In this document: piece by piece, positions 3,380-39,750 of the stretch
Layout: each line of letters starts with the position of its first letter
Position numbering within the stretch: position 1 is the first letter of the stretch
Source of the DNA: Hyalella azteca
Taxonomy: Eukaryota; Arthropoda; Malacostraca; Amphipoda; Hyalellidae
Assembly (NCBI RefSeq): GCF_000764305.2
Contig: NW_025944107.1
Span: 248,001-312,000, forward strand
Direction: 5' to 3'
DNA length: 64,000 nucleotides
Notes under the pieces: generated by a model
Databases searched by the model: none
What the model was told of the DNA's origin: nothing
The model's input: the letters and a program-made list of their open reading frames with translations, nothing else
Position numbers and translations under genes: made by a program

Positions 3380-3812
3380 GTGAGGGCGGGAGGGGTGTGT
3401 GGTGTGAGGGGTGTGTGGTGTGAGGGGTGTGTGGTGTGAGGGGTGTTAGGTGTGAGGGGTGTGTGGTGTGAGGGGTGTGTGGTGTGAGGGGTGTGTGGTG
3501 TGAGGGGTGTTAGGTGTGAGGGGTGTTAGGTGTGAGGGGTGTTAGGTGTGAGGGGTGTTAGGTGTGAGGGGTGTGTGGAGGGTGTGTGGTGTGAGGGGTG
3601 TTAGGTGTGAGGGGTGTTAGTTGTGAGGGGTGTTAGGTGTGAGGGGTGTTAGGTGTGAGGGGTGTGTGGTGTGAGGGGTGTGTGGTGTGAGGGGTGTTAG
3701 GTGTGAGGGGTGTTAGGTGTGAGGGGTGTGTGGTGTGAGGGGTGTATGGTGTGAGGGGTGTTAGGTGTGAGGGGTGTTATTAGGTGTGAGGGGTGTTTGG
3801 TGTGAAAATGTT
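3380..3812. repeat. G/T-rich 15-16-bp minisatellite starting at the exon 2 donor
   Basis: Units alternate between GGTGTGAGGGGTGTGT and GGTGTGAGGGGTGTTA. The true donor hexamer GTGAGG at 3380 is repeated about two dozen times, each potentially a decoy 5' splice site. The G-runs could form G-quadruplexes in the RNA. Confidence 0.85.
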
Positions 3813-4690
3813 TGGCGTGAAGGTGTTTGGTGGTCTTCACAAAAAACTTCCTGAGCCACGAGAGGTACGTGGTGTGAGGGGTGCATGATTTTGGTTATGA
3901 GGAATAGATGATGAGGTGATGTAAATGATGTGTGATGTCAGGGGTGTGTAATTTTAGAGATGTGTACCCTGCATAATGTGTTGTAAGTATGTATGTATCC
4001 ATCATTTACGATGTATAGAAAAATTCTATTCTAATTTGATACCAACTTAGGAAGATTGAATCAGTAGGAAATAGTTTCACGAAGATAACGGGTTCTACGG
4101 CGCTCCTCAGATGAAACGTTTCCTGTATTGCTTTCATTTCCATCACTGTGTTTTCGTGTTCTTGCAGTTTATATTTGACTCATAAATATACAACGATATT
4201 AAATAAATATACGATGATATTATATATAAATAACGAAAATAAAAATCCGAGAATATCCACGTTTCTGGAATTGGTCCAGATCTATGGATTTTGTAAATGA
4301 GGCTGTCAACTAAAGGAATCCATAAAACCGGAAATTACGATTCCAAAATCAACGACTTTCACAATTATTTTACACAAAAGCAAAATAATTTTACACATAA
4401 AGACACAATTATTTTACACTTAAGGATGCCTAATCAAGCTGCGACCGCCATCGTAATGCTTGTCCATACGTTGGCTCAATGCACATTCAATACCCGAAGT
4501 CACCTCCCGAAGCAATGCCGATATCTGGAATTTCGGAATAGCTGCTCAGCTCCCTGAACCTTGCAGGCTTATTTTATTGGCCAGTTGTTTGGACGCCCGT
4601 CTGGCGGCGCTGATTCAGCTCTGTTGATTAATAAGGGTGTCTGGAGTCTGATGCCGGCAACGCACGGTTGCAGCACTGTCTTATTGAAAG

Positions 4691-4908
4691 GATTTGGGTG
4701 CGTGATTGCTTTCTGTTCTCAAATAACAAGGATTTGGATGCGGGATTGCTTTCTGTTCTCGCATAACAAGGATTTGGGTGTGTGGTGGCTCTCTGTTCTC
4801 GCATAACAAGGATTTGGGTGTGTGGTGGCTCTCTGTTCTCAAATAAAAAGGATTAAGGTGGGTAATTGCTTAATGTTCTCACTGAACAAAGATTTTGGTG
4901 TGTGGTTG
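4691..4908. repeat. 40-bp tandem repeat, intron 2
   Basis: Six copies at an exact 40-bp period (unit starts 4691, 4731, 4771, 4811, 4851, 4891), recognisable by GATTTGGGTG and TTCTGTTCTC. No splice site is involved. A short open frame through it is a by-product of the repeat. Confidence 0.85.
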
Positions 4909-5419
4909 CTAAACGCGATGAAGGAACGTTATAGCGAATATAGTTTGTTGGTGCAGAGAGAAAAGCCGCGATATAATATAGAGGAATGTCTTGAAATTTC
5001 GAAAACCGTGGCTGTAAGAAAAACTTCGTAGGATCGTAAATAATCGAGAAGTGGATGTAAAGACGTGAATTAATGAGAAGGAAGACCAAAAACACAGTGA
5101 ATATCTTTGTTATGAGACTCGTTCCAAGTTTCTTAAAGCCGTCTCAGTTATTCAACGTTCAACGTTTGCAAACGTGCTGAATAAAGAAACTTTTAAATTA
5201 TTGAATTTCTGAAAAACTGTAAATCTCCTTCTAATGATCTTACCGTAGCATTCATCGATGTTTTATGTTTGAATGAAGTGTAAGACTGATGAACATGTTT
5301 GATATGTATGAATGAAAAGTATGTTTGCTATGTCTGAATAATAAGTATGAAGATAGGGAATGAACATGATGAACAACCTATATAGATGAGTAGTAGCAAC
5401 TTAGCAACAAGTATGAATC

Positions 5420-5610
5420 TATAATAACATATTACTTTACTCTCCCTATCTTCCCATCAAGGGTACGTACGAACTGCCACTCAACTATGATTAACGTTAT
5501 TAAAATGACCTACAAAAACAATTTAGACCAATATTAGCAACTTATATTACTCCCGAATAACATGTTACTTTATTCCCCACTCCTCCCCCAAGGGTACGTA
5601 CGAACTTCCC
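5420..5610. repeat. Duplicated acceptor of exon 3 (131-bp spacing)
   Basis: The segment ending in AAGGGTACGTACGAACTGCC at about 5459-5478 repeats the real acceptor and exon start at 5590-5609 (AAGGGTACGTACGAACTTCC). The preceding pyrimidine tract and a TAACAT-TTACTTTA-like stretch are also shared. Confidence 0.8.
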
Positions 5611-5758
5611 CCGAATTTTGAGGACCCTCGCCTGCTGAATCCCCGCCAGGTGCTCTATCACTACTGGGCTCGGTGGGGGCGATGGTACAAGTACCAACCA
5701 CTCGACCACATACGCGAGTACTTCGGCGAGAAGATCGGCATATACTTCGCCTGGCTCG
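5593..5758 (+). CDS. ANO7: Anoctamin-7-like, visible exon 3 (entry to helix 1)
   Basis: Acceptor AAG at 5590-5592; donor GTGCGT at 5759. It begins in phase 0 with [11 protein letters not shown], completing HDG from exon 2, and ends in phase 1. It carries the near-invariant anoctamin signature [18 protein letters not shown] followed by [15 protein letters not shown], the amphipathic entry to transmembrane helix 1. A partial second copy of the acceptor and exon start lies 131 bp upstream (AG at 5460-5461), so two acceptors compete; only the downstream one opens into the conserved coding sequence. Confidence 0.92.
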
Positions 5759-5855
5759 GTGCGTGCGATGGTTAACCATTCCAGTATGTAATGGTTAGCC
5801 ATTCCTGCGTGTGACGGTTAACCATTCCTGTATGTATAATGGTAAGCCATTCCTG
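5759..5855. repeat. 23-bp array at the exon 3 donor
   Basis: Four copies of a unit like TGCGTGCGATGGTTAACCAT begin at the donor itself. They supply donor-like GTATGT and GTAAGC sites. Related fragments recur near 5960-6030. Confidence 0.7.
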
Positions 5856-6286
5856 CCGCACCCTGGCAAACGATGTTGAATCAACTTTAAAATGAACGTT
5901 TTCATTTGATTGAATTAACGTTGATTAAACGGTGTTTCAACGTCGTTTGCCTGGTGGATGAGTGGGATAGTTAGTCATTCCTGCGTTGGATAGCTAGCCA
6001 TTAGTGCGTGCAGATGGTTAGCTACTCGTGTATATAACAATCCTGTTGATAATCCTGTATTAACACTGAGATGGAGTTAATGTAACATAAAAGATTCGTT
6101 AAATATGATTGTTGTAGAGACTAGTTTGGCAGCCGTGTTCAAAGGGACTAATTTTCGTATGATTCATTACTCTACGTTCGATTAAAGTAGTGTTAAGTCT
6201 CCAACTTGATCCACGTATTCGATGATGCGCATATCATTGCTTCGTATCATTTAATTTCTTCGATCATTCTATGATGTGTACACATA

Positions 6287-6341
6287 CGGCATCGTATCAT
6301 CGGCGTGCTTGAAATTCAAGCACTCCGATGATACGATGCCG
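6287..6341. repeat. Hairpin-forming inverted repeat, intron 3
   Basis: Arms of about 27 bases (CGGCATCGTATCATCGG... and its complement) match except for one base. A third copy of the GTATCATCGG element follows at 6341-6351. It may be the remnant of a small transposon. Confidence 0.6.
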
Positions 6342-6899
6342 TATCATCGGAGTCCTTGAAATTCAAGTTTTTTGTACCATAACTTAAATCTTCTCAATAA
6401 TTCTTGTCGGTTGTCCATTGTTCATAGAGTGACATACTCATACTGGGTTGACTGAGCACGTCAATATTCATCTTTCAACCTATATTTCTCAGATATCATC
6501 AGCTGTTTAGTGATTCAACCTTTCTTTTCCGTCTTGATTTATACATCTGCTGCAGATGTCACTGCAGCAGCTATTGAGACTGACCCCGAGTGGCGAATAT
6601 CAACAACTATTGTGGTGCATCGAATTTTATTTGCTATGTTCATACACATCCTCATGTATTTTAACACTCACAGTTCTCCACTACGTCAATACATCGACAA
6701 TACATACAGTGAAAGTTGATTGTTCCTGATGATATATACACCAGTTTTGCGTAAACCCAGCAAGACTGTCTATGTCTCCTACTAAATTCAGAAAAATTAG
6801 TGAGTTTTTGTCCAAATAGGGATGCACTTTTTGGCCTTGTGGTAGCGTAGACTTTTTTCACTTAGCGGGTGTACCATCTTAACCAGGTTCCGCCACCAG

Positions 6900-7157
6900 G
6901 TTTCTACACGGGGTGGCTGTTGCCGGCAGCGGTGGTGGGGCTGTTGGTGTTCTTGTATGGTCTGTTCACTATAAACCTGAACACTCCAGCCATCGAGATC
7001 TGCGAGACGCGAGGTCGCTTCAAGATGTGTCCTCTGTGTGACGAAGAACTCGGGTGTGAACACTGGGATCTCAATGACATCTGTCCCTACGCCATGATAT
7101 CCTACCTTTTCGACCACCCCGGCACCGTCTTCTATGCAATTTTTATCTCATTCTGGG
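6900..7157 (+). CDS. ANO7: Anoctamin-7-like, visible exon 4 (helix 1 to helix 2)
   Basis: Acceptor CAG at 6897-6899; donor GTGAGA at 7158. Phase 1 in (the Gly codon is split) and phase 1 out. It encodes GFYTGWLLPAAVVGLLVFLYG (helix 1), then an extracellular Cys-rich loop (EICETRGRFKMCPLCDEELG, then CEHWDLNDICPYA) and the start of helix 2 (GTVFYAIFISFW). The first extracellular loop of anoctamins is disulfide-bonded, and five Cys are present here. Another CAG 13 nt upstream (6884-6886) would shift the frame, so the downstream acceptor is chosen. Confidence 0.93.
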
Positions 7158-8139
7158 GTGAGAAATGTTGAAAAATAAACCCGATAATAATAGTATAATG
7201 GGTCAGCTTTCATTAGGCCTGTTGGCCTCTCACCATTTCTTTAACCGCCTAGGCACCTTGCCCAATTCGACCTCCCTCAATTCGGCACCACCAATTCCAG
7301 CCGTGGCTCTTCCGGAATTGTACTCATTGTTCCTGCTGACTGTTCTTGCTGACTATTCCTGCTGACTGTTCTCACTAACTGAACAATATTCCAGAGGTTT
7401 TCTCATAGCTTTTGGGGTTTGGCACTTTACGTTCGCAACGGCGAAACCAATGATCTCTACCATTTCTCTATTACCAACACTTTGATCTCTACCATTCAAA
7501 ACTCCACTTTTAACCTACTTGAATTTTGTCGAAAATATCTGGTGCTTTTTAGGCTATTTATTTTTTGAAGTGATCTTCAACGATTATAAATTCTTCTTTA
7601 ACGGTTACCTGGATATTAGACACTAAATTCCTGCCACTAACTGATTGACTGTAGTCGTATTCTTATTGCGGCTGAGGTAGGTGTGATATGACCGTTAGTG
7701 CCAGATCGTGGATATGGATCTTTGGAAATAATTCGGCATCTGCCCCAGCGTTATACCTTAGATACCAGGTGTAGTGGTCATCAAAATACTTCGCCTGTCA
7801 CGGGTCAACTTCATTCATTGCATTATGTCTTTTCCAAACCAGGTTGATTATACAGAATATCCTAGCCGATTGTGTCAGCGTTAGTTACTTTCCCTGAATA
7901 ATTCAGTTTGTTGCGACACTTCTTTAGATCAAATGTATAATTCTTGGTGATTACGCTATGGTGATTATCTTCATCGTTGTGATTATCTTGCTGTTTCTGA
8001 CGTTTTTAAAACTATACATCATAGCTAATATTATCGTATTTCACTCCTACGTTAAGTAGCCACTCCTAACCCGTGAAAACTGAGTTACGGCAGGACACTC
8101 ATTATTTAGTTGATGCTCGCTTCCCCGCAACTATTAACT

Positions 8140-8334
8140 GCTCCCCTAATTCTAGCCGTTTCGTTTTTAAAATTGTACTCATTTTTCCCAATGACTCTTC
8201 CCCCGATTTCAGCGGTGTCGTTTCTAGAATTGTATTCATTGTTTCCAATGACGGTTCCCCCGGTTTCAGCGGTGTCGTTTCTGGAATTTTACTAATTTTT
8301 CCCAAATTCCCAATGACTGTTCCCGCCATTCCAG
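8140..8334. repeat. Acceptor-spanning tandem duplication before exon 5
   Basis: Exon-like starts at 8156, 8213 and 8270 (57-bp period) precede the real start at 8335. Each copy carries a pyrimidine tract, AG and roughly the first 20 exon bases. The copies keep an open frame (AVSFLKLY, AVSFLELY, AVSFLEFY; the exon reads AVSFLEYW) that ends in a stop at 8293-8295. A more diverged relative is near 7275-7330. Confidence 0.85.
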
Positions 8335-8555
8335 CGGTGTCGTTCCTGGAATACTGGAAGCGCAAGAGCGCCTCGCTGGCGCACCACTGGGACAGCCTGG
8401 ACTTCCAGGAGGAGGAGGAGCGCCCGAGGCCCGAGTTCGCGGCCAAGGCCCCAACGCTGCAAAAGAACCCCATCACCGGGGTCCGGGAGCCCTCCTTCCC
8501 CAAGAGCATCCGCACCAAGAGGATTGTGGCGGGCGTGGGGCTCATCTTTATCATG
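8335..8555 (+). CDS. ANO7: Anoctamin-7-like, visible exon 5 (helix 2, cytosolic loop, helix 3 start)
   Basis: Acceptor CAG at 8332-8334; donor GTAAGA at 8556. The two opening bases complete Ala, followed by 73 codons ending in phase 0. Encodes VSFLEYWKRKSASLAHHWDS (end of helix 2), an acidic cytosolic stretch with ERPRPEFAAKAPTLQKNPIT, and the start of helix 3 (VAGVGLIFIM). ANO7 proteins have a closely similar loop. Both borders are duplicated: three decoy acceptors lie upstream (exon-like starts at 8156, 8213 and 8270), and about eleven 32-bp copies of exon end plus donor lie downstream. Reading on past the true donor gives a stop after 11 codons, so it must be the first donor that is used. 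Confidence 0.93.
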
Positions 8556-8937
8556 GTAAGAGGGGCGTGGGGCACATCTTTATCATGGTAAGAGGGGCGT
8601 GGGGCTCATCTTTATCATGGTAAGAGGGGCCTGGGGCTCATCTTTATCACGGTAAGAGGGGCGTGGGGCTCACCTTTATCATGGTAAGAGGGGCGTGGGG
8701 CTCATCTTTATCATGGTAAGAGGGGCGTGGGGCTCATCTTTATCATGGTAAGAGGGGCGTGGGGCTCATCTTTATCACGGTAAGAGGGGCGTGGGGCTCA
8801 TCTTTATCATGGTAAGAGGTGGGGCTCATCTTTATCATGGTAAGAGGGGCGTGGGGCTCATCTTTATCATGGTAAGAGGGGCGTGGGGCTCAGCTTTATC
8901 ACGGTAAGAGGGGCGAAGGGTTCAGCCGATTCCCAAA
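8535..8937. repeat. 32-bp donor-spanning tandem array after exon 5
   Basis: The last 21 exon bases plus the donor and following bases (GTAAGAGGGGC, then GTGGGGCTCATCTTTATCAT and G) recur about eleven times, nearly identical, then decay by 8937. Eight or more copies retain the exact ATG|GTAAGA donor; three have ACG before it. One copy carries a 4-bp deletion. Confidence 0.95.
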
Positions 8938-9249
8938 AGATTACTGTGTCATCTCATGAGGGTTGATTGATTTTGATTTGCAGGTTGTTTATCTGGTATT
9001 TGAAGGCATTAAGTTATTTTACAAATGGAGTTTTCATTTTGGTGTCATAGTTGTTTTGTTAATCATAATATTCAATTATTGTTGATTATTTATCTCTGTT
9101 AGGCGAGTAGCACCCAAATGGATTGCTAGTGGGCTATGGAGTGGCCATTATGTTATTTATTATAAATAATTAAAACGTAACGTATCATATTCAGGCTTTG
9201 AACTTATACTGAGATAAGTAAATACGCCTTTGATTTAGGTTTTTGTTGT

Positions 9250-9378
9250 TTGTCTGCTCCCCAAATGATACTTGTTATCTTCATCGTGGTGATTATCTCC
9301 TCTGTTCACCAGATGTCACTGGTGATTATCTTCATCGTGGTTATCTTCATCGTGGTGATTATCTCCTCTGTTCACCAG
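9250..9378. repeat. Acceptor-spanning duplication before exon 6
   Basis: A 66-bp repeat including CACCAG and ATGTCACTGGTGATTATCTT; exon-like start 9313 duplicates 9379. A third, older copy (about 9258-9305) has CAA in place of CAG and so no acceptor. Confidence 0.85.
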
Positions 9379-9471
9379 ATGTCACTGGTGATTATCTTCA
9401 TCGTGGCTGTGATCATCTACCGAGTGCTCGTGTCCATTCCCTTGTTCCAGAACGAGGCACTGAGGTCACAG
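9379..9471 (+). CDS. ANO7: Anoctamin-7-like, visible exon 6 (helix 3)
   Basis: Acceptor CAG at 9376-9378; donor GTACGA at 9472. Phase 0 in and out, 31 codons: MSLVIIFIVAVIIYRVLVSI, then PLFQNEALRSQ. This is the hydrophobic body of helix 3 and the start of the following extracellular loop. An identical acceptor with the same first 28 exon bases lies 66 bp upstream (exon-like start 9313). Using it would add 22 in-frame residues without a stop. I chose the downstream start because family spacing from exon 5 into helix 3 needs no insert. Confidence 0.88.
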
Positions 9472-9599
9472 GTACGATATGTCATCCGTTATTTTTGAAT
9501 CGATCACATTTAAATTTATTATTCTTGCTTTCGCCCTTTATTGGAAATTACTATTTGCTTCTTTTCCTTTGAGGGAAATTCCCATTGACTTAACCCCAT

Positions 9600-9830
9600 T
9601 CAAGGCAACACATTTCGCTTTAAGGAAAACTATATTGCTTTAATTCTTCTAATTTCATTTTAAGGAAAACTGTATTGCTTTAATTCTTCTTATTTCCTTT
9701 TAAGGAAAACTCTAAAGCTTTAATTCCTTTAACTTTGCTTTAAGGAAAACTTTAAGGCTTCAATATTTAATTTTGCTTTAAGGAAAACTTTAAGGCTCCA
9801 ACTCTTTTAATTTCGCTTAGGGGAAAAGTA
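9600..9830. repeat. About 40-bp tandem repeat, intron 6
   Basis: Six or so copies of a TTTCGCTTTAAGGAAAACTT-like unit followed by GCTTTAATTCTT. No splice signal is included. Confidence 0.75.
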
Positions 9831-9928
9831 AATATGAGTTAATATTCTTTTTTGATACACATGTATTAGACTAAAATGTTTCATAAATTTTGTATTGAAT
9901 TGTATTTTATTATATGAATTTTTTACAG

Positions 9929-10031
9929 GCACAGGCCATCTCGTCGCTCTCAGGCGCCGTAGTGAACTTCATGATCATCATGAGCATGGGACGCGTGTAC
10001 ACCAAACTTGCGTACAGACTCACCAACTGGG
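9929..10031 (+). CDS. ANO7: Anoctamin-7-like, visible exon 7 (helix 4)
   Basis: Acceptor CAG at 9926-9928; donor GTGAGT at 10032. Phase 0 in, phase 1 out. Encodes AQAISSLSGAVVNFMIIMSM, then GRVYTKLAYRLTNW, helix 4 and its cytosolic extension. A second CAG six bases downstream (9932-9934) would simply drop Ala-Gln, a tandem in-frame acceptor pair; the choice between the two is uncertain. The exon's last 30-40 bases and its donor are repeated downstream with donors at 10073, 10113 and 10153. Confidence 0.9.
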
Positions 10032-10185
10032 GTGAGTGTACACCAAACTTGCGTACAGACTCACCAACTGGGGTGAGTGATGCCTAACTGGCGTACAGAC
10101 TCACCAACTGGGGTGAGTGATGCCTAACTGGCGTACAGACTCACCAACTGGGGTGAGTGATGCCTAACTGGCGTATAAGTTCACG
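9991..10185. repeat. 40-41-bp donor-spanning array after exon 7
   Basis: Copies of GCGTACAGACTCACCAACTG plus GGGTGAGT place GT donors at 10032 (real), 10073, 10113 and 10153, then a decayed copy follows. The first duplicate preserves about 37 exon bases; the others share a deletion near their start. Confidence 0.95.
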
Positions 10186-10560
10186 AATATCATGTAAGCT
10201 TTTCGCCAGGTTTTTGTTGAATATTTTTTCATTTGTGCTCCCTGTGAATTCTATTTTTTGTGTGCTGTCCTATGCACAGAAAATGTCGCATTGTGATAAG
10301 ACTTCGCAAGATGCCATGCGTTAAAATTATTGTTCATCATGCTTCTTCATGCAAATATTTACTTCATTGACTCATGGTTTAGGTTATGTCATTTAATTTG
10401 GTAACAAAACAGACTTCAATTTAATTTTATACTCCAAATTGTCTCAGTCAATTTGACCACGGTAGTAAAAATTTCCTTTCAAATTGTAAGTTTTCTCTTT
10501 AAATTTACCCAAAAGCGATCACATCATTTCCTTCTGTGAATTTCATCAGGACTTTCATTT

Positions 10561-10866
10561 TTCCTCACCGAACACAGACGATCACTCCTTACTGTCAGTT
10601 TCCTATAAGAAATCAACTTTTCTCCAATCAGAGATGCATCGAACCTAGACGCTAACTTCTTACTGTCAGTTTCCTATAAGAAATCAACTTTTCTCCAATC
10701 AGAGATGCACCGAACACAGACGCTCACTTCTTACTGTCAGTTTCCTGTAATAAAGTAACTTTTCTCCAATCAGAGATGCACCGAATCCAGACGCTCACTT
10801 CTTACTGTCAGTTTCCTGTATAAGAAATAAACTTTTCTCAACCCAGAGATGCACCGAACCCAGACG
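10561..10866. repeat. 71-73-bp acceptor-spanning array before exon 8
   Basis: Units carry TTTCTCCAATCAG and AGATGCACCGAAC-like exon starts. Exon-like starts are at 10632, 10703, 10774 and 10847 (real). Only about the first 20 exon bases are included. Confidence 0.95.
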
Positions 10867-11013
10867 GAGTTCGAGGACAACCTCACGTTCAAGGTGTTCA
10901 TCTTCCAGTTCGTAAACTTCTACTCGTCGATATTCTACATCGCCTTCTGCAAGGGCCGCTTTGTCGGCTACCCTGGCCACTACAAACACATCCTCGGCCT
11001 CCGCAACGAAGAT
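10847..11013 (+). CDS. ANO7: Anoctamin-7-like, visible exon 8 (helix 5)
   Basis: Acceptor CAG at 10844-10846; donor GTAAGC at 11014. Two bases complete Glu, then 55 codons end in phase 0. Encodes [20 protein letters not shown], then [20 protein letters not shown] and [16 protein letters not shown]. This is helix 5 and the highly conserved re-entrant region lining the ion/lipid pathway in TMEM16 proteins. Three decoy acceptors (exon-like starts 10632, 10703, 10774) in 71-73-bp units precede the real one, each copying roughly the first 20 exon bases. Confidence 0.94.
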
Positions 11014-12221
11014 GTAAGCAAATATTTCAACGAATTTCAACGATATTCGAGACATTTTTTATATTAGGAAGGAAAATTTTTATTAGAATAAGATGTTAGT
11101 GTGTGCGTGGTAAGTTTGATGTGCTTAGTAAGGATGATTACCATTCACCATTTGGACTCAATTTGCGGACTGAGCGTCAAATGCGCTTAAATGAACATTA
11201 ATGGCTATAATTAATAATAGAGCAAAGCCATGCTGAAAACGAGCATATTTCGAAAGAGATTTAACCAATGATGTGAAATTGATGTGTTAAAAAGAAATTT
11301 CCTTTATTCCCGTGTTCTTTTACATTGTAAATTCGAGGTCGCTAATGAAGAAACTGTATAGTTTGAGGGACTATCAAGAAGTTAGCGTTGCATTATATTG
11401 TATGTGGCGTTAAGTTTCCAACTGTTATTTACATTCATTTAAAGTTTTTGATCATACGTAAATGACCAAATTATCTCACTGATACCGATACTATCAATAA
11501 TAAGCAACACATACCGAAACTATAAGCAAGCTCATATTTTTTCTGATACAAATAGTTTTTATAGGCTGTCTGCATACCGCCATTCATATATGTTCATTCT
11601 TTCCGTAATTTTACTGATTTCGTCTCGACATAAGACGGAGACAATGTTTAGAATTAAATTACCTTTGCTTACAGACAAGTAATTCTATAATTTATTGCTT
11701 CGTCGAAACAGTATAAAAGGTCTCATTATTTCACAAACCAATAATTTCTATTTGTCAAGAAAGTCAGAATTTTTATACCTCACTTTATCTTTCAATCAAT
11801 TCATAATGTCCTCGTAAAGTCATATTTATATGGTAATATAATTCTCATCATAATCGGAGTGTACGATTGCTAATCAGTATTTATTTTTACATGGCATATG
11901 ATGTGCAACAGCAAAAAGTCGGAATCATGTCAAAAATACAGTAATCCTTCAGTTATCTCATTTCCTACGTTTTATTACCTCGGCTGCGATAAGGTGAAAT
12001 CCACGATGGGGAATTGATCGACTGATAGTATTTATTTAAGTATTTGTATTGCAACTGTCTGATATTTTACATTATTGTAATCTTAACAACCCCTTCCCAC
12101 TTTCTTACTGTAGATCGAGTTCCGCGGAATGTTAAACCTGGAAAGATTTTCTCATTAATATTGGGTGAAAATCTTCAATGAAGTGAAATCCTCGTAGGTT
12201 AAGCGCGATATAGCGAGGGAT

Positions 12222-12597
12222 CACTGATATCACTATTATGATATAAATTATTCACGATTCACTAGTAATGCAAATTGTTAGTTTACTGTTCTCAGTGCTA
12301 TTAAATCACTATTATGATATAAATTGTTCACTATTCACGAGTAATGCAAATTGTTGGTTTACTGGTCGCAGTGCTATTAAATCACTATTATGATATAAAT
12401 TATTCACTATTCACGAGTAATGCAAATTGTTGGTTTACTGGTCGCAGTGCTATTAAATCACTATTATGATATAAATTATTTGTTATTCGCGAGTAATGAA
12501 TTGTTTGTTTACTGTTCGCAGTGCTATTAAATCACTATTATGATATAAATTATTCACTATTCACGAGTAATGCAAATTGTTTGTTTACTGCTCGCAG
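12222..12597. repeat. 74-76-bp acceptor-spanning array before exon 9
   Basis: AG sites before 12296, 12372, 12448, 12522 and 12598 (real) lie in near-identical context ending CTGCTCGCAG or similar, followed by TGCT. Only four exon bases are shared, so this array is mainly the intron side. Confidence 0.95.
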
Positions 12598-12726
12598 TGC
12601 TCGGCGGGCGGCTGTCTGATCGAGCTGGCGCAGCAGCTGGGAGTCATCATGATAGGCAAGCAGGTCGTCAACAACGCTCAGGAGATCCTGGTGCCTAAAC
12701 TCAAGGCCTGGTGGCACAAGAAGAAG
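12598..12726 (+). CDS. ANO7: Anoctamin-7-like, visible exon 9 (helix 6, Ca2+ ligands)
   Basis: Acceptor CAG at 12595-12597, phase 0 in and out, 43 codons. Encodes CSAGGCLIELAQQLGVIMIG, then KQVVNNAQEILVPKLKAWW. The NNxxE motif supplies two helix-6 calcium ligands: Asn at 12670-12672 and Glu at 12682-12684. The donor is GTTCTT, a poor 5' splice site, followed at once by about 150 bases of nearly uninterrupted T-rich sequence. No better GT exists nearby, and the protein ends at the expected family point (KKK before the variable 6-7 loop). Four decoy acceptors in 74-76-bp units lie upstream. Confidence 0.92.
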
Positions 12727-12880
12727 GTTCTTATTTTTTTTATCTTATCTCTATATTATTTTTTATCTTATTTTTTCTATTTTTATTTATTTATTTTATC
12801 TTATTTTTTATCTCTATTTTTTTTATTTTATTTTTTTAACTTAATTTTTTATTTGTTTTGTTTTATTTTTTTTTCTACAT
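12727..12880 (+). promoter_or_regulatory. T-rich tract immediately after a weak donor
   Basis: About 150 bases of nearly pure T with scattered A and C start right at the GTTCTT donor of exon 9. In other animals U-rich sequence just downstream of weak 5' splice sites binds TIA-1-type proteins that help recruit U1. The role here is inference. Confidence 0.4.
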
Positions 12881-13689
12881 GAATCCTAATTATAATTTTT
12901 GCAATTTGAGTAAGGATATTTTTCTTAGTGACGTGGAATCGAAGTGTTCCGAATGCGATTGTTCCTCTACGATCTGCTTAGAAATTTCCGATTAATTTAT
13001 TCATTTTTTTGCTAATACATTCACAAATTATACATATAATGAGGTTAAAATGTGTGCACAATCTTTAATTCATAACCCAATCACCATTGCTTTTTTGATT
13101 AAACCAACCAATTAATGATCCATGAACCAAGTTTACGATCCGCGAAAAAGTCACTATCGCAATCCACTACTCCTGTTGTAATTTCGAGTGATTGAGTTTT
13201 CTGAGTAGTGATAGGATTAATTTTTTGCTGGTTTTCTTTTCGATGGCTTCCATATGCTTTTGGTGGCATGTTGGTCTGTTTTCAGATGTTTTTTTTGTGT
13301 GACAATGTATTCGTAATTGGTCATTTCCTACGGCTTCAAAAGTATAATGAAGCTTGTCTTTAGATGTTTCTCGTAGTGTATTAATTTTTTATATACAGGT
13401 ACATTTCCCTAGATTTGCATCTAAGGAATGGTTAACAATTCTATTGTGAAATTTCAAAAATGAAGATGGTAATCTTAGTTTAGAAACAAATAAACCATGA
13501 ATGATATTTTGTTCTTTGTGGAATTGGACTTATTAAATTGCTCATGATTTTTCTCGTGAGGCCGTCCTATCATAAATAGTTACGAGTTCATAACTCCGTC
13601 AACCAATCACTGACATCTTTACAAGCTAAACCTACTAATCATAGACGAAAAAATATAACTCAGTACTCACTGCAGTGAGTGACAGAGAG

Positions 13690-13806
13690 CGCATTTTCTC
13701 GTCGACGAAAACGTGAAGTCACGGAGGGACAGACAGACGGACAGACAGACGGATGGACATGGCGAGCACAATAGTGCAATTTTTCCATAAATGAGAAAAT
13801 GCGCTA
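13690..13806. repeat. Inverted repeat around a GACA-type microsatellite, intron 9
   Basis: Twelve-base arms GCGCATTTTCTC (about 13690) and GAGAAAATGCGC (about 13793) enclose repeats of GGACAGACAGAC. It may be a small mobile-element remnant. Confidence 0.4.
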
Positions 13807-13904
13807 AAAGCGACCGCAACGTATACTCAAACAAGTTTTTACGACCCCAGAACATTTAATCACTGCAACTACTAATTAACATTTAGTCATCGTTGAACAG
13901 CAGC

Positions 13905-14187
13905 ACGTAATTGTTTAAGAGCTCAACATGCTGTGTGGCTTACAGGTTAACTTTATTGTTTAAGAGTTGAATGCTATGAAATACAATGCAGTGATGCCTT
14001 CAGCACCTGCTTGGCTTACAGGTTAACTTGATTGTTTATAGGAGTAGAATGCTATAAAATATAATACTTTGATGCCATTAGCTCCTGCTTGGCTTGCAGG
14101 TTAACTTGATTGTTTATAGGAGTAGAATGCTATAAAATATAATACTTTGATGTCATTAGCGCCTGCTTGGCTTGCAGGTTAACTTGA
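13905..14187. repeat. 76-78-bp acceptor-spanning array before exon 10
   Basis: CAG|GTTAACTT recurs with exon-like starts 13946, 14022, 14100 and 14178 (real). The shared exon part is ten bases. The two copies nearest the exon are almost identical. Confidence 0.95.
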
Positions 14188-14268
14188 GCGGCAAGACCAG
14201 GTCCCCCTGGGAGGCAGACTACGCTCTCATCGACAACGAGGGCCTCTTCGAAGAGTACCTGGAAATGG
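14178..14268 (+). CDS. ANO7: Anoctamin-7-like, visible exon 10 (loop 6-7, start of helix 7, Ca2+ ligands)
   Basis: Acceptor CAG at 14175-14177; donor GTGAGA at 14269. Phase 0 in, phase 1 out; encodes VNLSGKTRSPWEADYALIDN, then EGLFEEYLEM. The EYxE motif gives the two helix-7 calcium ligands, Glu at 14253-14255 and Glu at 14262-14264. The preceding linker is cytosolic and variable in the family. Three decoy acceptors, each followed by the exon's first ten bases, lie upstream in 76-78-bp units (exon-like starts 13946, 14022, 14100). Confidence 0.92.
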
Positions 14269-14817
14269 GTGAGATTTTTCTTCCATTGTAACAAAATGAT
14301 CATATTTTAAAATGAAAAATGATGATTAAAATTTTAATGACCGAAATGATCAAAATAGTAGAGAATACTATGAAATGTATTAGACAATGGTCTTTCTGTG
14401 AGACCTTATTAGGAAGAAGAATATATCCATATGGTGTTCGTAAATCAGATGCAGTTTTCATGTTTCCGTCATTCAATTTGGGTACTTTTCACAATTTTTT
14501 TCAATTCGTTCATTCAAACAATATTAACTCCTCTATGTTTGCGTTTTTATCCCCATTTCAAAATTAGTGAAAATCGGAGCGTTCTTCATGTTCACAAATT
14601 TTACATTAGAAGCGCTCCAATTCTCTTTTAAAAATTAGTTTATCAGTTTTCCTTGTTTTTAATCCCGTTAATTTTCAGTTTCTCATCCCGTACGATTCCA
14701 TTCGATCACTATCCAACCTGATTATTAACATAACTTCCACTTCGTAGCTCCACATTGCATTGTAATCCTTTCCCACTTTCGCTACCTCATTATCATTAAC
14801 TGTTGTTGCGATGGCAG

Positions 14818-15023
14818 TTTTGCAGTTCGGTTTCCTGACGATCTTCGTAGCGGCGTTCCCGCTGGCGCCGCTGTTCGCGCTGCTCAACAACTGGGTCGAG
14901 ATCAGGCTCGACGCGCAGAAGTTTGTGTGCGAGACCCGACGGCCCGTAGCTGAACGTGCCCAGAATATTGGTATCTGGTTCACCATCCTTGACTTCATGG
15001 CTCATCTCGCCGTCATCAGTAAT
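14818..15023 (+). CDS. ANO7: Anoctamin-7-like, visible exon 11 (helices 7-8, Ca2+ ligands)
   Basis: Acceptor CAG at 14815-14817; donor GTGAGT at 15024. Two bases complete Val, then 68 codons, phase 0 out. Encodes [20 protein letters not shown], then [15 protein letters not shown] and [15 protein letters not shown]. The helix-8 ligands are Glu at 14898-14900 and Asp at 14910-14912. This is the most conserved block of the family and the clearest identification. The last 63 bases and donor are duplicated downstream three times; the first duplicate (15058-15117) is an open, in-frame 60-nt cassette with AG and GT borders. Confidence 0.96.
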
Positions 15024-15290
15024 GTGAGTTCATCATCATCATGTTGTGCTCGATCAGAATATTGTTATCTGGTTCACCATCCTTGTCTTCATGGCGCATC
15101 TTGCTGTTATCAGTAATGTGAGTTCATCATCATGTTGTGCTCGATCAGAATTATTGGTATCTGGTTCACCATCCTTGACTTCATGGCGCATCTCGCCGTC
15201 ATCAGTAATGTGAGTTCATCATCATGTTGTGCTCGATCTGAATATTGGTATCTGGTTCACCATCCTTGATTTCATGGCGGGTCTATTAAT
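14960..15290. repeat. 92-94-bp donor-spanning array after exon 11
   Basis: The last 63 exon bases plus GTGAGTTCATCATC are repeated. Donors are at 15024 (real), 15118 and 15211, with a final truncated copy to about 15290. The first duplicate keeps the reading frame; the second has a one-base insertion. Confidence 0.95.
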
Positions 15291-15439
15291 TCATGGCATC
15301 ATTAATATATATATACTCAACTCTTTCATCTTGGTATTTTTCTAAAAGAAAAACAATAAGTAGAAATATTAGACTAGCAATTACTGAACACAGTTCCCTT
15401 CTCTGAACCAATATTCACATTACAGCCATGTTAACTTCA

Positions 15440-15680
15440 GTTTCGGGTGCTTCCTCGTCCTTTCTTTTTCGTTTTTTCCTGCATTTTGTCCTTATATTTT
15501 TCTTTTCGTTTCACTATTAGTTTTCTGTATCTCTCCCTATTTTTCTTCGCTTCCTTTTCGTTTTCGCTGCATTTCGCCTTATTTTTTTCGCTTTCATGTT
15601 TTTCTTTTCCTTTTCCCTGCATTTTCTCATAATTTTCTTGCCGTTTCTCATTCATTTTTTTCTGAATTTCCTACTTTTTT
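15440..15680. repeat. Pyrimidine-rich low-complexity tract, intron 11
   Basis: About 230 bases of T/C-rich sequence with irregular TTTTTCGTTTTTTCCTGCAT-like units. The long minus-strand Lys/Glu-rich frame across it is an artefact of composition. Confidence 0.6.
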
Positions 15681-16747
15681 TGCTGAATTAGCATTTCCTT
15701 TTCATTTATTTATCTCGAGCGTGTGAAACGCTTATCAATCGATGTCAGGATATGGAGGCGGTAGCTTCGTCTCGAGCGCAGTTATCTCTAAATTAAACTG
15801 GTCATAAGACGAAGTCGTGTCTAAAGTCTTTCGTGTTCAGTCGTGTCTTAGTTCATTCATGTCAAGTCTCGACGTCACTCATTTTTGTAGTACAACTTAC
15901 GTTGGAATCAAGGTCAAGGTAAACCTCGTCTAATTAATCTAGAACAATGGCATATTATCGCCGCCACTAGGCTGTCTGAGGGAGTTTTTGCCTTATAATT
16001 ACAATATCAATAAACCACACACTTCTTATAGGCTTTGGCTCCAGAAAAAATACTATTGATTTCATGCTTTTAGTAATTAGTTCTAGTAATTATCCATGGC
16101 TTCATATAATTATTCATATGTCTGCATAATGATAAACGGATTAAACAACTAATATAGATGATCAATTTCAGCAATTCAGGTTCAAATAACATCAAAAGCA
16201 TAATTTTTAATGATTATTACTATTTGAAGTATATTATTGTTAAAAATCATTTTATGTGGTAACGGTATAGCACCATGATTATGTTCGATTATCCATTACT
16301 ATCACAACAAGACTATTCTTCCTTCATTCTTGTAAAACTTTAAAAATATTTCTCTTCATCAGTCTCCTTCTTCCATGATTTGAAATTTTTATCAATCTTG
16401 CGAGAGCGTGACTGCAAAAATGAAAGAAAATGAAATACACTAAACCGGAAATTCAACTACAAAACAAAGCTTCCGGTTTACATTCAATGGACAAACCTTC
16501 AATTGCCTCACGGATTTTTTTATCTTCTCACAGAATTCTTTGATTGACATTTGAATGTCGTGCGGAAGTCGTTCGATTAATCTATAACTTTACTTCAACA
16601 ATTATTTATAATCACTCATTTCGAGTTCTAAATCAGCAGCAAAGCTCGGTCCCGCATTAATTTAACAGTCAACAAACTAAATCATGAATTTATTCAGATT
16701 TTGTGTTATTTACGACAATTTTTATTGATTTATTCTGTGTGGTGCAG

Positions 16748-16881
16748 GCATTTTTGATCGCGTTCACGTCGGAGTTCCTACCAAGGCTGCTGTACAAGTA
16801 CGAGTACGACTGGTCCCTACGTGGCTACGTGAACTTCACCCTCGCAACCGCACCCAACGGCACTATGAGTCAACCATGCAG
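16748..16881 (+). CDS. ANO7: Anoctamin-7-like, visible exon 12 (helix 9 and last extracellular loop)
   Basis: Acceptor CAG at 16745-16747; donor GTACGA at 16882. Phase 0 in, phase 2 out. Encodes AFLIAFTSEFLPRLLYKYEY, then GYVNFTLATAPNGTM and SQPC. Helix 9 is followed by an extracellular loop with two N-glycosylation sequons (NFT, NGT). Downstream, a decaying array repeats the last few exon bases plus the donor, with GT at 16964, 17063 and 17112. Confidence 0.92.
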
Positions 16882-17130
16882 GTACGAATATCATTACTCT
16901 AGTTTAGTGAAATTTCATTGTTTTGTAGTTTGATTGTATTTTATTAATGACTGTACCGTGCAGGTAGGAATATCATTGTAATTCACGTTTGATTCATAGT
17001 TGAACAATGCAAGTATGATTATCCTTGTATTTTAGCCTTTGCTCGCTAGTTGAACAATGCAGGTAGGAATATCATTGTATTTTGCGTTTGCTTCATAATT
17101 GAACAATTCAGGTAGCAATATCATTGTATT
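16870..17130. repeat. Donor-spanning array after exon 12 (about 50-82-bp units)
   Basis: GAACAATGCAG|GTAGGAATATCATTG-like copies follow the real CATGCAG|GTACGAATATCATT. GT sites are at 16882 (real), 16964, 17063 and 17112; one intermediate copy has lost its GT. Confidence 0.8.
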
Positions 17131-17425
17131 TCAACAACATTCCAGAGCCTCGCAGCTTGTTAGCTTTGTGATGAAAAATGGCTTTCTTTTGGTGAAGAAT
17201 CAATGATTGTTAAATATATATTTCCGGTTTTATATCCTCGAGCATTTATATATTAAAATTAATGGCAATATCTAGTGAACTTACTGGAACCCTGTAGATC
17301 TGGTTAAGAATAAATGCACTTCACCTGTTGATGGTGTGCTTTTTCTGTAAATTTATTTTCATTTATTCCAGTAAATAATCTAAATTGGAAGACCCTTTTG
17401 CATCGATGACGTCTTCTGTCCCCAG

Positions 17426-17516
17426 GTATCGTGGATACCGGGATCACGAAGGCCTCCACACGACCTTCTTCTGGCGCTTGCTGGCCATCAGACTCGGTTT
17501 CGTGATAGCTTTTGAG
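17426..17516 (+). CDS. ANO7: Anoctamin-7-like, visible exon 13 (helix 10)
   Basis: Acceptor CAG at 17423-17425; donor GTCAGT at 17517. One base completes the Arg codon from exon 12, then 30 codons, phase 0 out. Encodes RYRGYRDHEGLHTTFFWRLL, then AIRLGFVIAFE. The CRYRGYRD motif ends the extracellular loop, and the hydrophobic segment is the first half of helix 10. No splice-site duplication is evident around this exon. Confidence 0.92.
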
Positions 17517-17693
17517 GTCAGTGCGAAATTCAGCCATTTGATGTATCACATTTTGCTAATATTTGAGCTTATGCACTGGACAAACTTACACGACATTCTT
17601 ATCTGAAAATTTTTGAATGTGATTTCATTTTATACGAAAAGATACGAAAGTAAAACTGTGATTAATCAGAGAGTTGTGGATGTTGTCGTACAG

Positions 17694-17825
17694 CACGTGG
17701 TGTTCGGTGTGTGCCGCCTCATCGATGTGCTGGTGCCAGACGTACCGCAGAGCCTCGAGATCAAGATCAAGCGAGAGCGATACCTGGCCAAGCAGGCACT
17801 CGCTGACTCAGAGACCATTTTGAAG
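17694..17825 (+). CDS. ANO7: Anoctamin-7-like, visible exon 14 (end of helix 10, C-terminal helix)
   Basis: Acceptor CAG at 17691-17693; donor GTGAAC at 17826. Phase 0 in and out, 44 codons. Encodes HVVFGVCRLIDVLVPDVPQS, then LEIKIKRERYLAKQALADSE, ending TILK. This finishes helix 10 and the basic cytosolic helix seen at the end of all anoctamins. If the donor is not used, translation stops after VNNS at 17838-17840, giving a short-tailed protein like vertebrate ANO7. That is a possible intron-retention isoform. Confidence 0.93.
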
Positions 17826-21527: not shown

Positions 21528-22577
21528 TTAAGGGGAGCGTCAACCCCAAAAATCATCTCGGCTATTTACAAACGGATCACTCTGAAACTTGGTACACATA
21601 TGTAAAATGGAAAAAAACTCACATTTTGTTCCTGTGAATTTTTTCGAAAAAATTGAAAGAAAACGTGAAATTCATAGAAAACGGTCAAAAAAGGGGGTAC
21701 TTTTCAAATCTATCTCCTCCTAGGATTTTAAAGCTACGACATCGAGACACATATCATTCGATGCGCAAAATCTTTATCTATAAAACGACCTAGCCGTTTT
21801 TTGAATTTCTAATTTTTGCGGGTGTGGGAGCATTTTTCGTAAAGTTTTCGGAAATTTTTCGATTTTACCCCTTTCCACCCCCCTTCTTCAGGAATAAAAT
21901 CCAAACTATGACGAAATTGAAAAAACGGCTAGGTCGTTCTGTAGATCTATTCTTTGCGAATCGAATGGTATATGTCTCATTGTTGTAGCTTTAAAACTCT
22001 AGGAGGAGATAGGTTTTCCGTGACAATAAGTGTGAATGGTGAGGAGAGCGCGACAAAGTCCCGCGCGCACCACAATATGCGCTCAATGTAGCATAGATAC
22101 CAAACTAAACGTTTCTGGAGCTTGATTCCACTCAAGGATGATGGGAGCAACTACATGCGCATCTCTCCCTACAAAGCCCGGAGGCACACTGAGTCAGACC
22201 TCACAAAAATACTATATTTGTAGTGGTGGACAGCGAATTATCTCATATCTAATTACTGAAAGAACTCCCCCCCCCACCCCCCTTTCATGAAGTGTCGTGT
22301 ACGTAAAAATCGACGTACAGAGATGGTAATGGTACCGTTGGATAGGCCAGAATGTCAGCTTTAAGATGAGACTAAACACGTAACTGCAGCACAACTCAAG
22401 TAGACACTATATATAAAGAGCTCACCAGCTAATTAGTTCCTATCTAATAGTGAAATCATAAATCAACGTAGAGAGATGGCAGTGGTACCGTTGGATAGGG
22501 CAGAATGTCAGCTTTAAAATTAGTATGAAAACCGAAAAAGTAAAATTTTTCAATTTTAGGGTAGACGCTCCCCTTAA
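21528..22577. mobile_element. TTAA-flanked element with inverted termini and internal fold-back arms
   Basis: Ends are TTAAGGGGAGCGTC (21528-21541) and its exact reverse complement GACGCTCCCCTTAA (22564-22577). The outer TTAA could be a duplicated target site, as in the piggyBac superfamily. Inside, about 100-bp arms at 21709-21810 and 21910-22012 are inverted copies, and a 70-80-bp segment is directly repeated (about 22303-22385 and 22456-22530). There is no transposase frame, so it is non-autonomous. Superfamily is inference. Confidence 0.6.
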
Positions 22578-23126
22578 ATTAATGCCTTCACTCAATGAAC
22601 ACTACCCTAACGCATAATTATTTTTCACAGAGTGATTTCCGATTCAAATCTGGAAAAGACATAATCAGACACATGAATTAAATAGGTCTAATTAAGAACC
22701 TTTTGAGAATAACGAAAGTTTAATTCACACTGCCGAACCTAAAGGAGCATAGGCAGAATATTATGTCTAAATCTTTTCAAGTGCCGTTTATATTCTTTCT
22801 TCTGTAGCTCTTTGACTTATTTGTCAGCTGAATTATTTACGTGAAATGAACAGTGGTTCAAATAAGTATAAAAATCAGCTCCGACCATTTCGAAAATTTT
22901 AGCTATTCTCGACAGTGCAATTAATTTAAACAATAAACTAAAATAATAATTAATACTTTTTCCTGGCCAAAATTAAAAGTATTTGTTTCCGTCTCGTTTA
23001 TCGTACACGCTTAAAATTTTGTATTTTGTTCAGGAAATTTTGTTGATCAGGAAAGCTTAAAATTTTCAAGTATTTTTGTGTGCATTTATTTATTTGTTGA
23101 TACAGAACTCTATTATTTCCTGTCAG

Positions 23127-34550: not shown

Positions 34551-34551
34551 T

Positions 34552-37017: not shown

Positions 37018-37505
37018 TGTCAGCTAACCTAGAAATATTATTATCAAAGTTGCAGTACAAATATTATTTTTAAAGTTGCCGTACAAATATTATTATCAAA
37101 GTTGCCGTACAATCATTATAATCAAAGTTGCAGTAGAAATATTATCAAAGTTGTAGAACAAATACTATTATCGAAGTAGCCGTTCAAATATTATTATAAA
37201 AGCTGCCATACAAAAATTATTATCAATGTTGCCGTACAAATATTATTATCAAAGTTGCGGTACAATCATTATAATCAAAGTTGCCGTAGAAATATTATTA
37301 TCATTGTTGTAGAACAAATACTATTATCGAAGTAGCCGTACAAATATTATTATCAAAGTTGCCATACAAATATTATCAATGTTGCCGTACAAATATTATT
37401 ATCAATGTTGCCGTACAATCATTATAATCAAAGTTGCTATAGAAATATTATTATCAAAGTTGCCGTACAAATATTATTATCAATGTTGCCGTACAAATAA
37501 TATTG
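37018..37505. repeat. About 26-bp tandem array upstream of the riboflavin transporter
   Basis: About 18 imperfect copies of CAAATATTATTATCAAAGTT followed by GCCGTA. No coding potential. Confidence 0.85.
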
Positions 37506-39000
37506 TAAAAGTGTTCTTACAAGTTCATGGCGCTGCCGGCTGAATGTACTTGGGTGAAGGTTGACGACGCTGTGTCAGACGGGCTAGTTGGTAGATGTTG
37601 CGCTGCTGTAACAGGAGCAGTTGCGTAACATGCGCGACACATATACGGATTCTTTTGAGATGGAAATGTCTAGGCGATAATTTTATTTTTACTTGGGTTG
37701 TCTTGGGGTATGCATTTTTCATGGTTTTGAATGTAGAGCTATTTTTATCAAAATCTGAGATTGATTTCAATGAATGACAACATTTCATAATATGAAAAAA
37801 ATTTGCAGTTGGCGAAAATATATTTTAGCCTGATCAAGCGATTTTTCATTTTCAAATTTTTCCATTTTCAGGCGATTTTGAATTTTTCATTTGTTTAGTT
37901 TGTATATATAAATATAAAGTTACGACGCAACCCTCCGATTGATTCATCGTAAAAAAGTTCATATTTGTCAGATAATGCGCCTAGCTGCCTTTAATTATTT
38001 ACGTTCACCTTTTCTACAATAAATAAAGCTTTCGATAATTAATGCTGGAAACCCTACAATTTTATGCCCAACAAACTAATTTTTAGTCCATTTTTCTTGG
38101 TCTCAAGCGACAGCGGCCGCTTATATGATAGGAACAGGATTTGCATTTTCACTTCAATAATTTTCGCAGCCAAATTCTTGCAAAAGGTTCATTGATCTGT
38201 TTTTCCTATGAATGATCGTCAGTATTTAGCCAATGAATAACTTCTTGTAATGCAACTGCAACAGATAATCTTACTTCATACAAGCTCATCCATTGAGAGG
38301 TTGCGCTATCATGCGCTATGCAGTACGTTGCCGAGAATGGCTTTCTTCATTCGTAATACAGTATTAATTTCATTGCTAGGTTACACTTAGAGAAATGAAT
38401 GGGTAAAACTGCCCTAATAGTGTCGAATTTTTTCACGCACAGCGAAAACCAGACGTAGCACAGATACGTTATTTTGTCATGCCAAACTGGGTTTGGGATG
38501 ACCGGCACAAGGGTGTAATAAACTGCATCGCTATTCTGACAAAGTCTCACTTATTTCTTTGAGTATTTGCCAATTTGTTGTATTGTTCCTGAATTTGTCT
38601 GAAATATTGTTTCCTGCTTTCTATATAAGAACGTAATTTCAGTTGGATTACTTATGTATACGAAATAATGTCGTTCATGAAGATTAATATAAAAAACCAT
38701 GTGATTGCAGGAATGGAGAGGTGAGTGTGAAAATTGTTCCTTATTATTTTCCGATTTTATTTATATATATGTTCTACAGATATTATGCAAACCTTCCAAA
38801 AAATTGCTATATTTTCTTCGAGATAAAATTTCTCTCTTCGAAGCTGGAACAGAACTTCAAGATTATAAACTTTTACTAACGTTTATAAAGTATAGAAATT
38901 TTCATGTTCAGACTGAACTAATTTGTATACCCTAAATAAACAGTAATATTAAAACAATATTAGTAGGTAGGTTGCCGTTGAACTCAAGCAGGCAACCACA

Positions 39001-39153
39001 ATGTCGAAACGCCACTTAATCAACACACTCGCCATACTCTTCGGCGTGGGAGCTTGGGTGTCAGTCAATGGGATCTGGGTGGAACTGCCTCTCATGGTGG
39101 ACAGTCTGCCGGAGGGCTGGGCTCTTCCATCTTATCTTTCCGTCATAATACAG
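39001..39153 (+). CDS. SLC52: Riboflavin transporter exon 1
   Basis: Starts at an ATG in good context (CCACAATGTC) and encodes 51 codons: [20 protein letters not shown], then [20 protein letters not shown] and [11 protein letters not shown]. Donor GTGAGA at 39154, phase 0. This is helix 1 with the conserved NGIWVELPL motif and the start of helix 2. The last 42 bases (codons for [14 protein letters not shown]) and the donor are echoed downstream in about 103-bp units (39215-39256, 39318-39359, 39420-39461, 39526-39567, then degenerate). Confidence 0.93.
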
Positions 39154-39750
39154 GTGAGATATGGGCGTGAAATAGGTGAAAAATTACTATTTTTATTGTA
39201 GAAAGTGACTGCTTGAAGGCTGCGATCTTTCATCTTATCTTTCCGTCATAATACAGGTGAGATATGGGCGTGAAATTGGTGGAAAAATTACTCTTTTATT
39301 GTAGAAAGTGACTGCCTGAAGGCTGCGATCTTCCATCGTATCTCTCAGTTATAATACAGGTGAGATCAGAGCATAAAATTAGTAGAAAATTACTCTTTCA
39401 TTGTTTAAAGTTACTACTTGAAGGCTGGGCTCTTCCATCTTATCTCTCTGTCATAATACAGGTGAGACATGGGCGTGAAATTTGTGAAAAATTACTCTCT
39501 TGGTAATTTTAGAAAGTGACTGTTAAAAGCTTGCGATCTTCCATTTCATCTCTTTGTCATAATACAGGTGAAATATGTGCAAAAAATGGTAAAAAATATA
39601 CTTTCTTATTGTAGAAAGTTACTGACGAGGGCTGGGCTTTACTTTGTTATCATCTGACCATCGTAATATAGGAGAAGTTTGGACGCGAAATTAGCGAAAA
39701 ATATTTTTTTTTGTTGCCTGAAGGTTAGTTTCTTCCATCTTCTCCTATTT
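39112..39750. repeat. About 103-bp donor-spanning array after riboflavin transporter exon 1
   Basis: Exon end plus donor recurs at 39215-39256, 39318-39359, 39420-39461 and 39526-39567, each followed by GTGAG or GTGAA, then two degenerate copies to about 39750. Each intronic unit also contains a TTGTAG- or TTTTAG-like potential acceptor. Confidence 0.95.

Follow-up and report, generated by a model that had tools for sequence, protein, structure and literature searches.

Tandem repeats that straddle exon-intron borders, and whose units carry the splice signal, recur in the amphipod Hyalella azteca. We analysed a 64,000-nucleotide stretch of contig NW_025944107.1 (positions 248,001 to 312,000; hereafter the window) which holds an ANO7-like anoctamin gene and an SLC52 riboflavin transporter gene, and found 10 of their 33 modelled coding splice junctions inside such arrays. 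The arrays are tandem duplications of about 20-155 bp over the border, mostly in several copies, so that splicing has to single out the right site from nearly identical ones. Because their structure, their occurrence at both kinds of border and their variable unit match the 'mirages' of amphioxus, we file them as mirage-type minisatellites in another phylum. The reading we favour, with a probability of roughly 60%, is that tandem duplication dependent on guanine-cytosine (GC) content produces them, that exon-internal copies are purged and that border-straddling copies are spared.

The ANO7-like gene supplies 29 of the 33 junctions (starting with the acceptor at 905 and running to the exon that ends at 25082) and SLC52 the other four, and this independent model agrees with the total given in an earlier note on this DNA (the original prediction). 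Joining the 15 ANO7-like exons yields a single open frame of 1326 amino acids, which matches Panulirus ornatus at 87% (over the 653 amino acids searched) and the Trinorchestia longiramus orthologue P0242 at 68% over 1326 amino acids; its best solved relative is Anoctamin-1 (6bgi, E 2e-171). All 14 ANO7-like introns in the window fall in stretches that align with P0242 without gaps for 8 amino acids on either side, so the exon-proximal copy of each repeat is coding and the remaining copies are intronic. The gene extends upstream of the window, where there are two more exons. The middle SLC52 exon matches PF06237 (E=2e-90), and the SLC52 exons are 99-100% matches to H. azteca HAZT006407.

A junction was scored as spanned when the 24-mer lying over it (12 exonic and 12 intronic bases) had a copy matching at least 18 of 24 bases no more than 300 bp away on the intron side. 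Junctions are numbered by the last base ahead of the boundary. By this test the spanned junctions are 5592, 8334, 8555, 9378, 10031, 10846, 14177, 15023, 16881 and 39153 (Table 1). The original prediction had placed twelve junctions inside repeats: these ten stood, while 3379 (12/24) and 12598 (16/24) fell short. Its further statement that the unit differs each time, which speaks against any single transposon, is borne out, as units of 32-131 bp differ in both length and sequence at all ten; a transposon or introner family was rejected on the same observation, no search for the units across the genome having been made. An assembly artefact is scarcely credible as a source. The 66-bp duplication at 9274-9406 and a 24-bp array at another locus, L036, are 100% identical internally and all the data come from one assembly, but 36 of 43 copies in the window show differences from the real site over 28 bases, and the substitutions vary from copy to copy.

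Table 1. Border-associated repeats and gene models, in window coordinates.
Feature	Coordinates	Strand	Description
Acceptor 5592/5593	5442..5608	+	two copies 131 bp apart; exon bases identical 14/14
Acceptor 8334/8335	8154..8353	+	57-bp units; real site and 3 intronic decoys
Donor 8555	8531..8915	+	32-bp unit; 11 intronic decoys, identity 24-28/28 bases
Acceptor 9378/9379	9274..9406	+	exact 66-bp duplication; decoy would insert 22 amino acids in frame
Donor 10031	10005..10175	+	40-bp unit; 3 decoys
Acceptor 10846/10847	10566..10866	+	71-bp unit; 3 decoys
Acceptor 14177/14178	13936..14187	+	78-bp unit; 3 decoys
Donor 15023	14961..15279	+	92-bp unit; 2 decoys having the splice signal
Donor 16881	16870..17131	+	49-bp unit; 4 decoys, starting 82 bp past the real site
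SLC52 donor 39153	39115..39638	+	unit of about 103 bp; 4 decoys that retain GT
Acceptor 12597/12598, borderline	12229..12601	+	76-bp array including AG, only 4 exon bases; 16/24
Donor 3379, borderline	3390..3832	+	16-bp array from 11 bp into the intron; shares only the gtgaggg core; 12/24
Donor 5758	5760..5856	+	array from 2 bp into the intron; abuts, not spanning; 13/24; not in the original prediction
Donor 12726 (gttctt)	12729..12874	+	T-rich array from 3 bp into the intron; abuts only; 14/24; not in the original prediction
ANO7-like anoctamin gene	905..25082	+	15 coding exons in the window, stop included
ANO7-like exons 1-8 in the window	905-1041, 3211-3379, 5593-5758, 6900-7157, 8335-8555, 9379-9471, 9929-10031, 10847-11013	+
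ANO7-like exons 9-15 in the window	12598-12726, 14178-14268, 14818-15023, 16748-16881, 17426-17516, 17694-17825, 23199-25082	+
SLC52 riboflavin transporter gene	39001..44608	+	exons 39001-39153, 40634-41731, 44414-44608 (stop included)

Repeats at this locus are concentrated at junctions. The same test was positive at 10/33 junctions versus 13.55% of 9244 intron-interior and 1.2% of 1890 exon-interior positions. When 32 hand-merged arrays were shuffled, the observed 8/32 spanning a junction (7/32 if at least 8 bases were required on each side) compared with an expected 1.4-2.3 (P from 1.2e-4 to 1.4e-3 by variant). With automatic merging, 6/37 arrays spanned a junction in ANO7 versus 2.1 expected (P = 0.014) and 1/2 in SLC52 versus 0.3 (P = 0.3). 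These P values are post hoc, the locus having been picked by an earlier reader for its look.

We also examined genes that the earlier reader had not selected. Adding 260 kb next to the window gave 324 kb of one contig (in a 519-Mb genome), and genes were picked there from the predictions of a small exon-chain finder, which on the genes it was trained on reproduced 15 of the 18 known exons exactly and a 16th but for the stop codon. The picks, here called the four other genes of the contig, were a RIM-like gene, with 4/34 junctions in spanning arrays (121 bp at an acceptor; 140, 82 and 93 bp at three donors), DPM1 (1/4, a donor), a kinase gene (1/12, a donor, 155 bp) and an SLC22-like gene (0/10). 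A Pfam search of the genome found anoctamin matches on four other contigs, and two of these four paralogue loci, chosen by family and not by repeats, were examined: the paralogue on contig C180 has 4/16 junctions in spanning arrays and that on C1519 has 1/10. Thus 11 more spanned junctions lie beyond the window, in five other genes, giving 21 overall (13 donors and 8 acceptors), and both border types are affected. At an ANO10-like donor (L036, reverse complement 4510-4580) an exact 24-bp unit is present three times, and each extra donor copy would add 8 amino acids in frame.

The names RIM, DPM1, DYRK-like, SLC22, PRDX5 and ANO10-like are provisional. Among the predicted neighbours Pfam gave C2 and Redoxin above the cut-off and Glycos_transf_2 and Pkinase only below it, and two SLC22-like pieces had no Pfam match. 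For the RIM-like gene 18 predicted exons were used; that at 52160 was omitted as an array copy, and those at 54963, 66631, 66806, 67182, 67681, 72695, 72925, 73211, 79582 and 80302 for low score, low complexity or being start-type. The prediction at 166332 was omitted from the kinase gene, whose ends at 168819 and 171511 are edges of coding segments and not predicted sites, and 328280 was omitted from the SLC22-like gene. At L036 the exon before 4112 and an adjacent 45-bp array (3506-3922) are uncounted.

Because an array would reach into the exon by only about one unit, we regard the edge-conditioned control and the masked GC-matched control described below as the fairer nulls. In the edge-conditioned control, pseudo-junctions need unique DNA on one side, which is true of real junctions; 7/96 contig junctions, including one ANO7 hit, dropped out. 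At a copy threshold of at least 18/24 the four other genes gave 6/58 versus 3.9% (P = 0.025) and all genes of the contig 15/89 versus 4.7% (P = 1.6e-5). At 22/24 or better the four other genes gave 5/58 versus 1.1% (P = 4e-4, or 0.012 by bootstrap over introns), and at thresholds of 23 and of 24/24 the bootstrap P was 0.13. Before any matching for GC, the excess rose with copy identity, from 3.6-fold at 18/24 or better to 16-fold at 24/24. Binomial P values here and below ignore clustering.

Base composition explains part of this excess. A second control used GC-matched non-coding positions with junction arrays and predicted exons masked. In masked non-coding DNA of the 324 kb, under edge conditioning at 20/24 or better, the share of positions with copies was about 1.1% where GC was 20-40%, 3.0% at 40-50% and 6.6% at 50-60%, plus 5% below 20% GC, which is probably low complexity; in gene introns the figures were 0.9-1.0%, 3.3% and 10.3% for the same three classes. 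Local GC is 40-60% at 70/89 junctions. Because the copy rate climbs with GC and exon edges are GC-rich, local GC accounts for about a factor of two of the junction excess. The interiors of exons are rarely duplicated (1.2% at 18/24 or better, 1.0% at 20/24 or better, in a test that was not edge-conditioned, unlike the non-coding one).

The enrichment persisted under the masked GC-matched control. In reader-independent genes (three contigs) 10/84 junctions had copies of at least 20/24 versus 3.2 expected (P = 1.3e-3; 1.5 expected and P = 3e-6 without GC matching), and at 22/24 or better 10 were found versus 2.3 (P = 1.1e-4). At 20/24 or better the two other contigs gave 5/26 versus 1.2 (P = 5e-3), the window genes 9/31 versus 1.5 and all 115 conditioned junctions 19 versus 4.7. 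We conclude that the original observation is largely right and that the claimed exon-edge enrichment survives, with caveats, in unselected genes. A recurrent process, as had been proposed, is supported, and so is an excess over edge-conditioned intron positions, which extends to genes that the reader had not picked, though it is not seen under every control. The density claimed for it was inflated by selection, because ANO7 is an outlier picked by the reader (8/27 conditioned junctions versus 6/58 in the four other contig genes).

These results suggest the following mechanism. A GC-dependent duplication process would generate tandem copies. A duplication straddling a border may be close to neutral because the unit brings its own splice signal and the spare copies would leave with the intron; an equal event inside an exon would be purged by selection. 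The donor used would be the first copy transcribed, defined together with its exon, and at acceptors the last copy would have to win. The copies that fit the protein are in these positions, the fitting donor being the earliest to be transcribed and the fitting acceptor the last.

Several points weigh against GC-dependent duplication with purging as a sufficient account. A 3-4-fold junction excess is left after masked GC matching, beyond the explanation offered. High-GC patches may be GC-rich by being arrays. Copies at junctions stay recognisable longer than copies in neutral DNA because the real copy next to them is under selection, which by a hand estimate would raise their detection up to 1.75-fold. 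We infer the neutrality of the decoys. Under masked GC matching the four other contig genes by themselves are borderline (5/58 versus 2.0 at 20/24 or better, P = 0.05), and when GC-matched positions were drawn from introns still holding their junction arrays, these genes showed 6 versus 5.5 of 58 at 18/24 or better (P = 0.47), 5 versus 3.8 at 20/24 or better (P = 0.34) and 5 versus 2.1 at 22/24 or better (P = 0.06); over all genes this comparison gave 15 versus 9.1 (P = 0.034). Against plain coverage the four other genes had 6/60 junctions versus 8.2% of intron positions (P = 0.37), and all genes of the contig 16/96 versus 10.4% (P = 0.04). A fully automatic exon set gave 5/88 versus 5.0%, with a filter that discards exons having large-unit copies. 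We regard plain coverage, the automatic set and unmasked GC matching as real limits on the result.

The plain-coverage and automatic-set figures are also what could be expected if chance and the reader's selection were at work, that is, if in a minisatellite-rich genome some arrays landed on junctions and ANO7 were an extreme draw. Arrays with a period of at least 12 found by Tandem Repeats Finder (TRF) do cover 35.8 of the 324 kb (11%). Plain coverage probably overstates the null, though, given the short reach of arrays into exons, and the edge-conditioned excess in unselected genes and the excess on other contigs argue against chance. Shuffling arrays inside introns gave 11/80 versus 4.3 in the pooled data (P = 0.0017) and 4/41 versus 1.9 in the four other genes, without those of the window (P = 0.09). 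Taken together, we consider chance improbable.

The residual excess leads to a different alternative, namely a process aimed at borders that makes or keeps duplications beyond what base composition predicts. It could be mutational (transcription- or splicing-linked breaks, R-loops or nucleosome edges) or selective (the keeping of spare sites). Its main support is that the excess outlasts masked GC matching in all 115 junctions, in reader-independent genes and on two other contigs, together with the rise of the unmatched excess with copy identity. The four other contig genes, however, show no significant excess under plain coverage or unmasked GC matching, longer detectability at constrained sites covers part of the excess, and the sample is only eight genes on three contigs, two of the genes being paralogues of a window gene. 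We consider such a process rather unlikely. In a broader form, which we hold as tentative and less likely than not, tandem duplication in Hyalella would be concentrated at borders genome-wide beyond base composition, with about one in eight junctions spanned and a transcription- or splicing-linked mutational process as the likeliest cause.

The decoys bear on the selective form of this alternative. GT or AG is intact in 66/68 decoys. Yet splicing at 33/35 of the decoys in the window would disrupt the reading frame or introduce a stop, and only two would leave an open frame, one of which is without AG; spare sites would thus be nearly all useless. Buffering of splice sites, which the original prediction had offered as one possible purpose of the repeats, is unsupported for this reason. 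Retention of GT/AG (66/68 versus 53.9 expected from flank identity, in decoys picked without regard to the core) was not counted as selection on decoys, because the exon-side bases of decoys are nearly as conserved, as would be expected if only the real copy were constrained. Using a matrix trained on the window's real sites, 32/44 donor decoys and 7/22 acceptor decoys equalled or outscored the real site, so acceptor decoys tend to fall below it and donor decoys to equal it; that donor decoys are stronger than acceptor decoys is suggestive only, the difference not being significant over arrays (P = 0.11). The conserved protein suggests that splicing ignores the decoys. The decoy acceptor at 9274-9406 may nevertheless be used in an alternative isoform. 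Donor 12726 is unusually weak, with the lowest of 16 donor scores, and is directly followed by a T-rich array.

Contrary to the original prediction, which knew of no such phenomenon, repeats of this kind have a name. Two reports describe amphioxus 'mirages' as tandem repeats over exon-intron borders in Adh3, the globins BflGb6 and BflGb9, PGBD5 and troponin C (PMC3087553, PMC3902484). In these accounts, as in Hyalella, the repeats span the border, their copies include the splice signal, 5' and 3' borders are affected and the unit varies by locus. Mirages are further marked by mRNA that is still spliced regularly, on which the gapless alignment at 14/14 ANO7 introns bears only indirectly, and by allelic or somatic instability in length. 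The Hyalella case differs in being from an arthropod, in having its rate and excess measured and in being known from the DNA of one assembly. We found no report of border-spanning repeats in crustaceans among the matches listed, in a search outside which most subscription journals lie, and a paper on Daphnia tandem repeats (PMC3152781) had no match to any of four splice or border terms.

One of the amphioxus reports proposes a model of intron gain for mirages (PMC3087553), which raises the possibility that the Hyalella arrays are Rogers-type remnants of introns gained through duplicated exon pieces containing AGGT. We consider this very improbable, as by eye the donor and acceptor arrays of introns 8556-9378 and 10032-10846 are unrelated, each array is at one intron end and the junctions lie in gapless conserved stretches of protein. 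Two studies in which introns are reported to arise through tandem duplication (PMC4974935, PMC2891723) likewise tie duplication to intron borders; unlike there, we have no evidence of new introns in Hyalella. Dual-specific splice sites in human UBC and VCX3A (PMC10809524) also have splice signals within repeat units, but there the repeat encloses the whole intron, which measures a multiple of the unit, and one site serves as both 5' and 3' site. This type was rejected for Hyalella, where TRF arrays cover one intron end and the two introns with arrays at both ends have differing units (32 versus 66 bp in one, 40 versus 71 bp in the other). Internal tandem repeats of human segmental duplications (PMC2812944) are minisatellites with units averaging 30 bp, some at exon-intron borders, that alter exons and can give rise to new introns in recently formed paralogues, whereas in Hyalella the protein and the junctions are conserved.

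Some further features of the region were observed. The last ANO7-like exon (23199-25082) is 1.9 kb long and encodes a long tail without a Pfam match, which is common to the Trinorchestia orthologue. The Trinorchestia orthologues of ANO7 and SLC52 (P0242 and P0122) each lie on a contig whose length is given as 425,564 bases, which suggests conserved linkage of the two genes (window 905-44608). A 24-bp array of about 14 copies upstream of SLC52 (34554-34886, plus strand) contains eight AGGTRAG donor-like motifs and may represent a mirage associated with a non-coding exon. A 108-bp array of six copies (53127-53771) is not within the modelled genes. An open reading frame of 498 amino acids with a reverse transcriptase domain (PF00078) lies just past the window end (L013:929-2422; contig 312929-314422).

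The arrays carry a caution for gene prediction, as decoy sites can be mistaken for true ones: our own simple gene finder began an exon at 9313, from the decoy acceptor that lies 66 bp before the true one at 9379. Donor copies that are almost identical and spaced 24-100 bp apart offer natural experiments in splice-site choice by the spliceosome, and the arrays provide a continuing test of whether border duplications feed intron gain. The Hyalella genes extend to an arthropod a phenomenon reported in a few amphioxus genes, and they do so at a density high enough for statistics.

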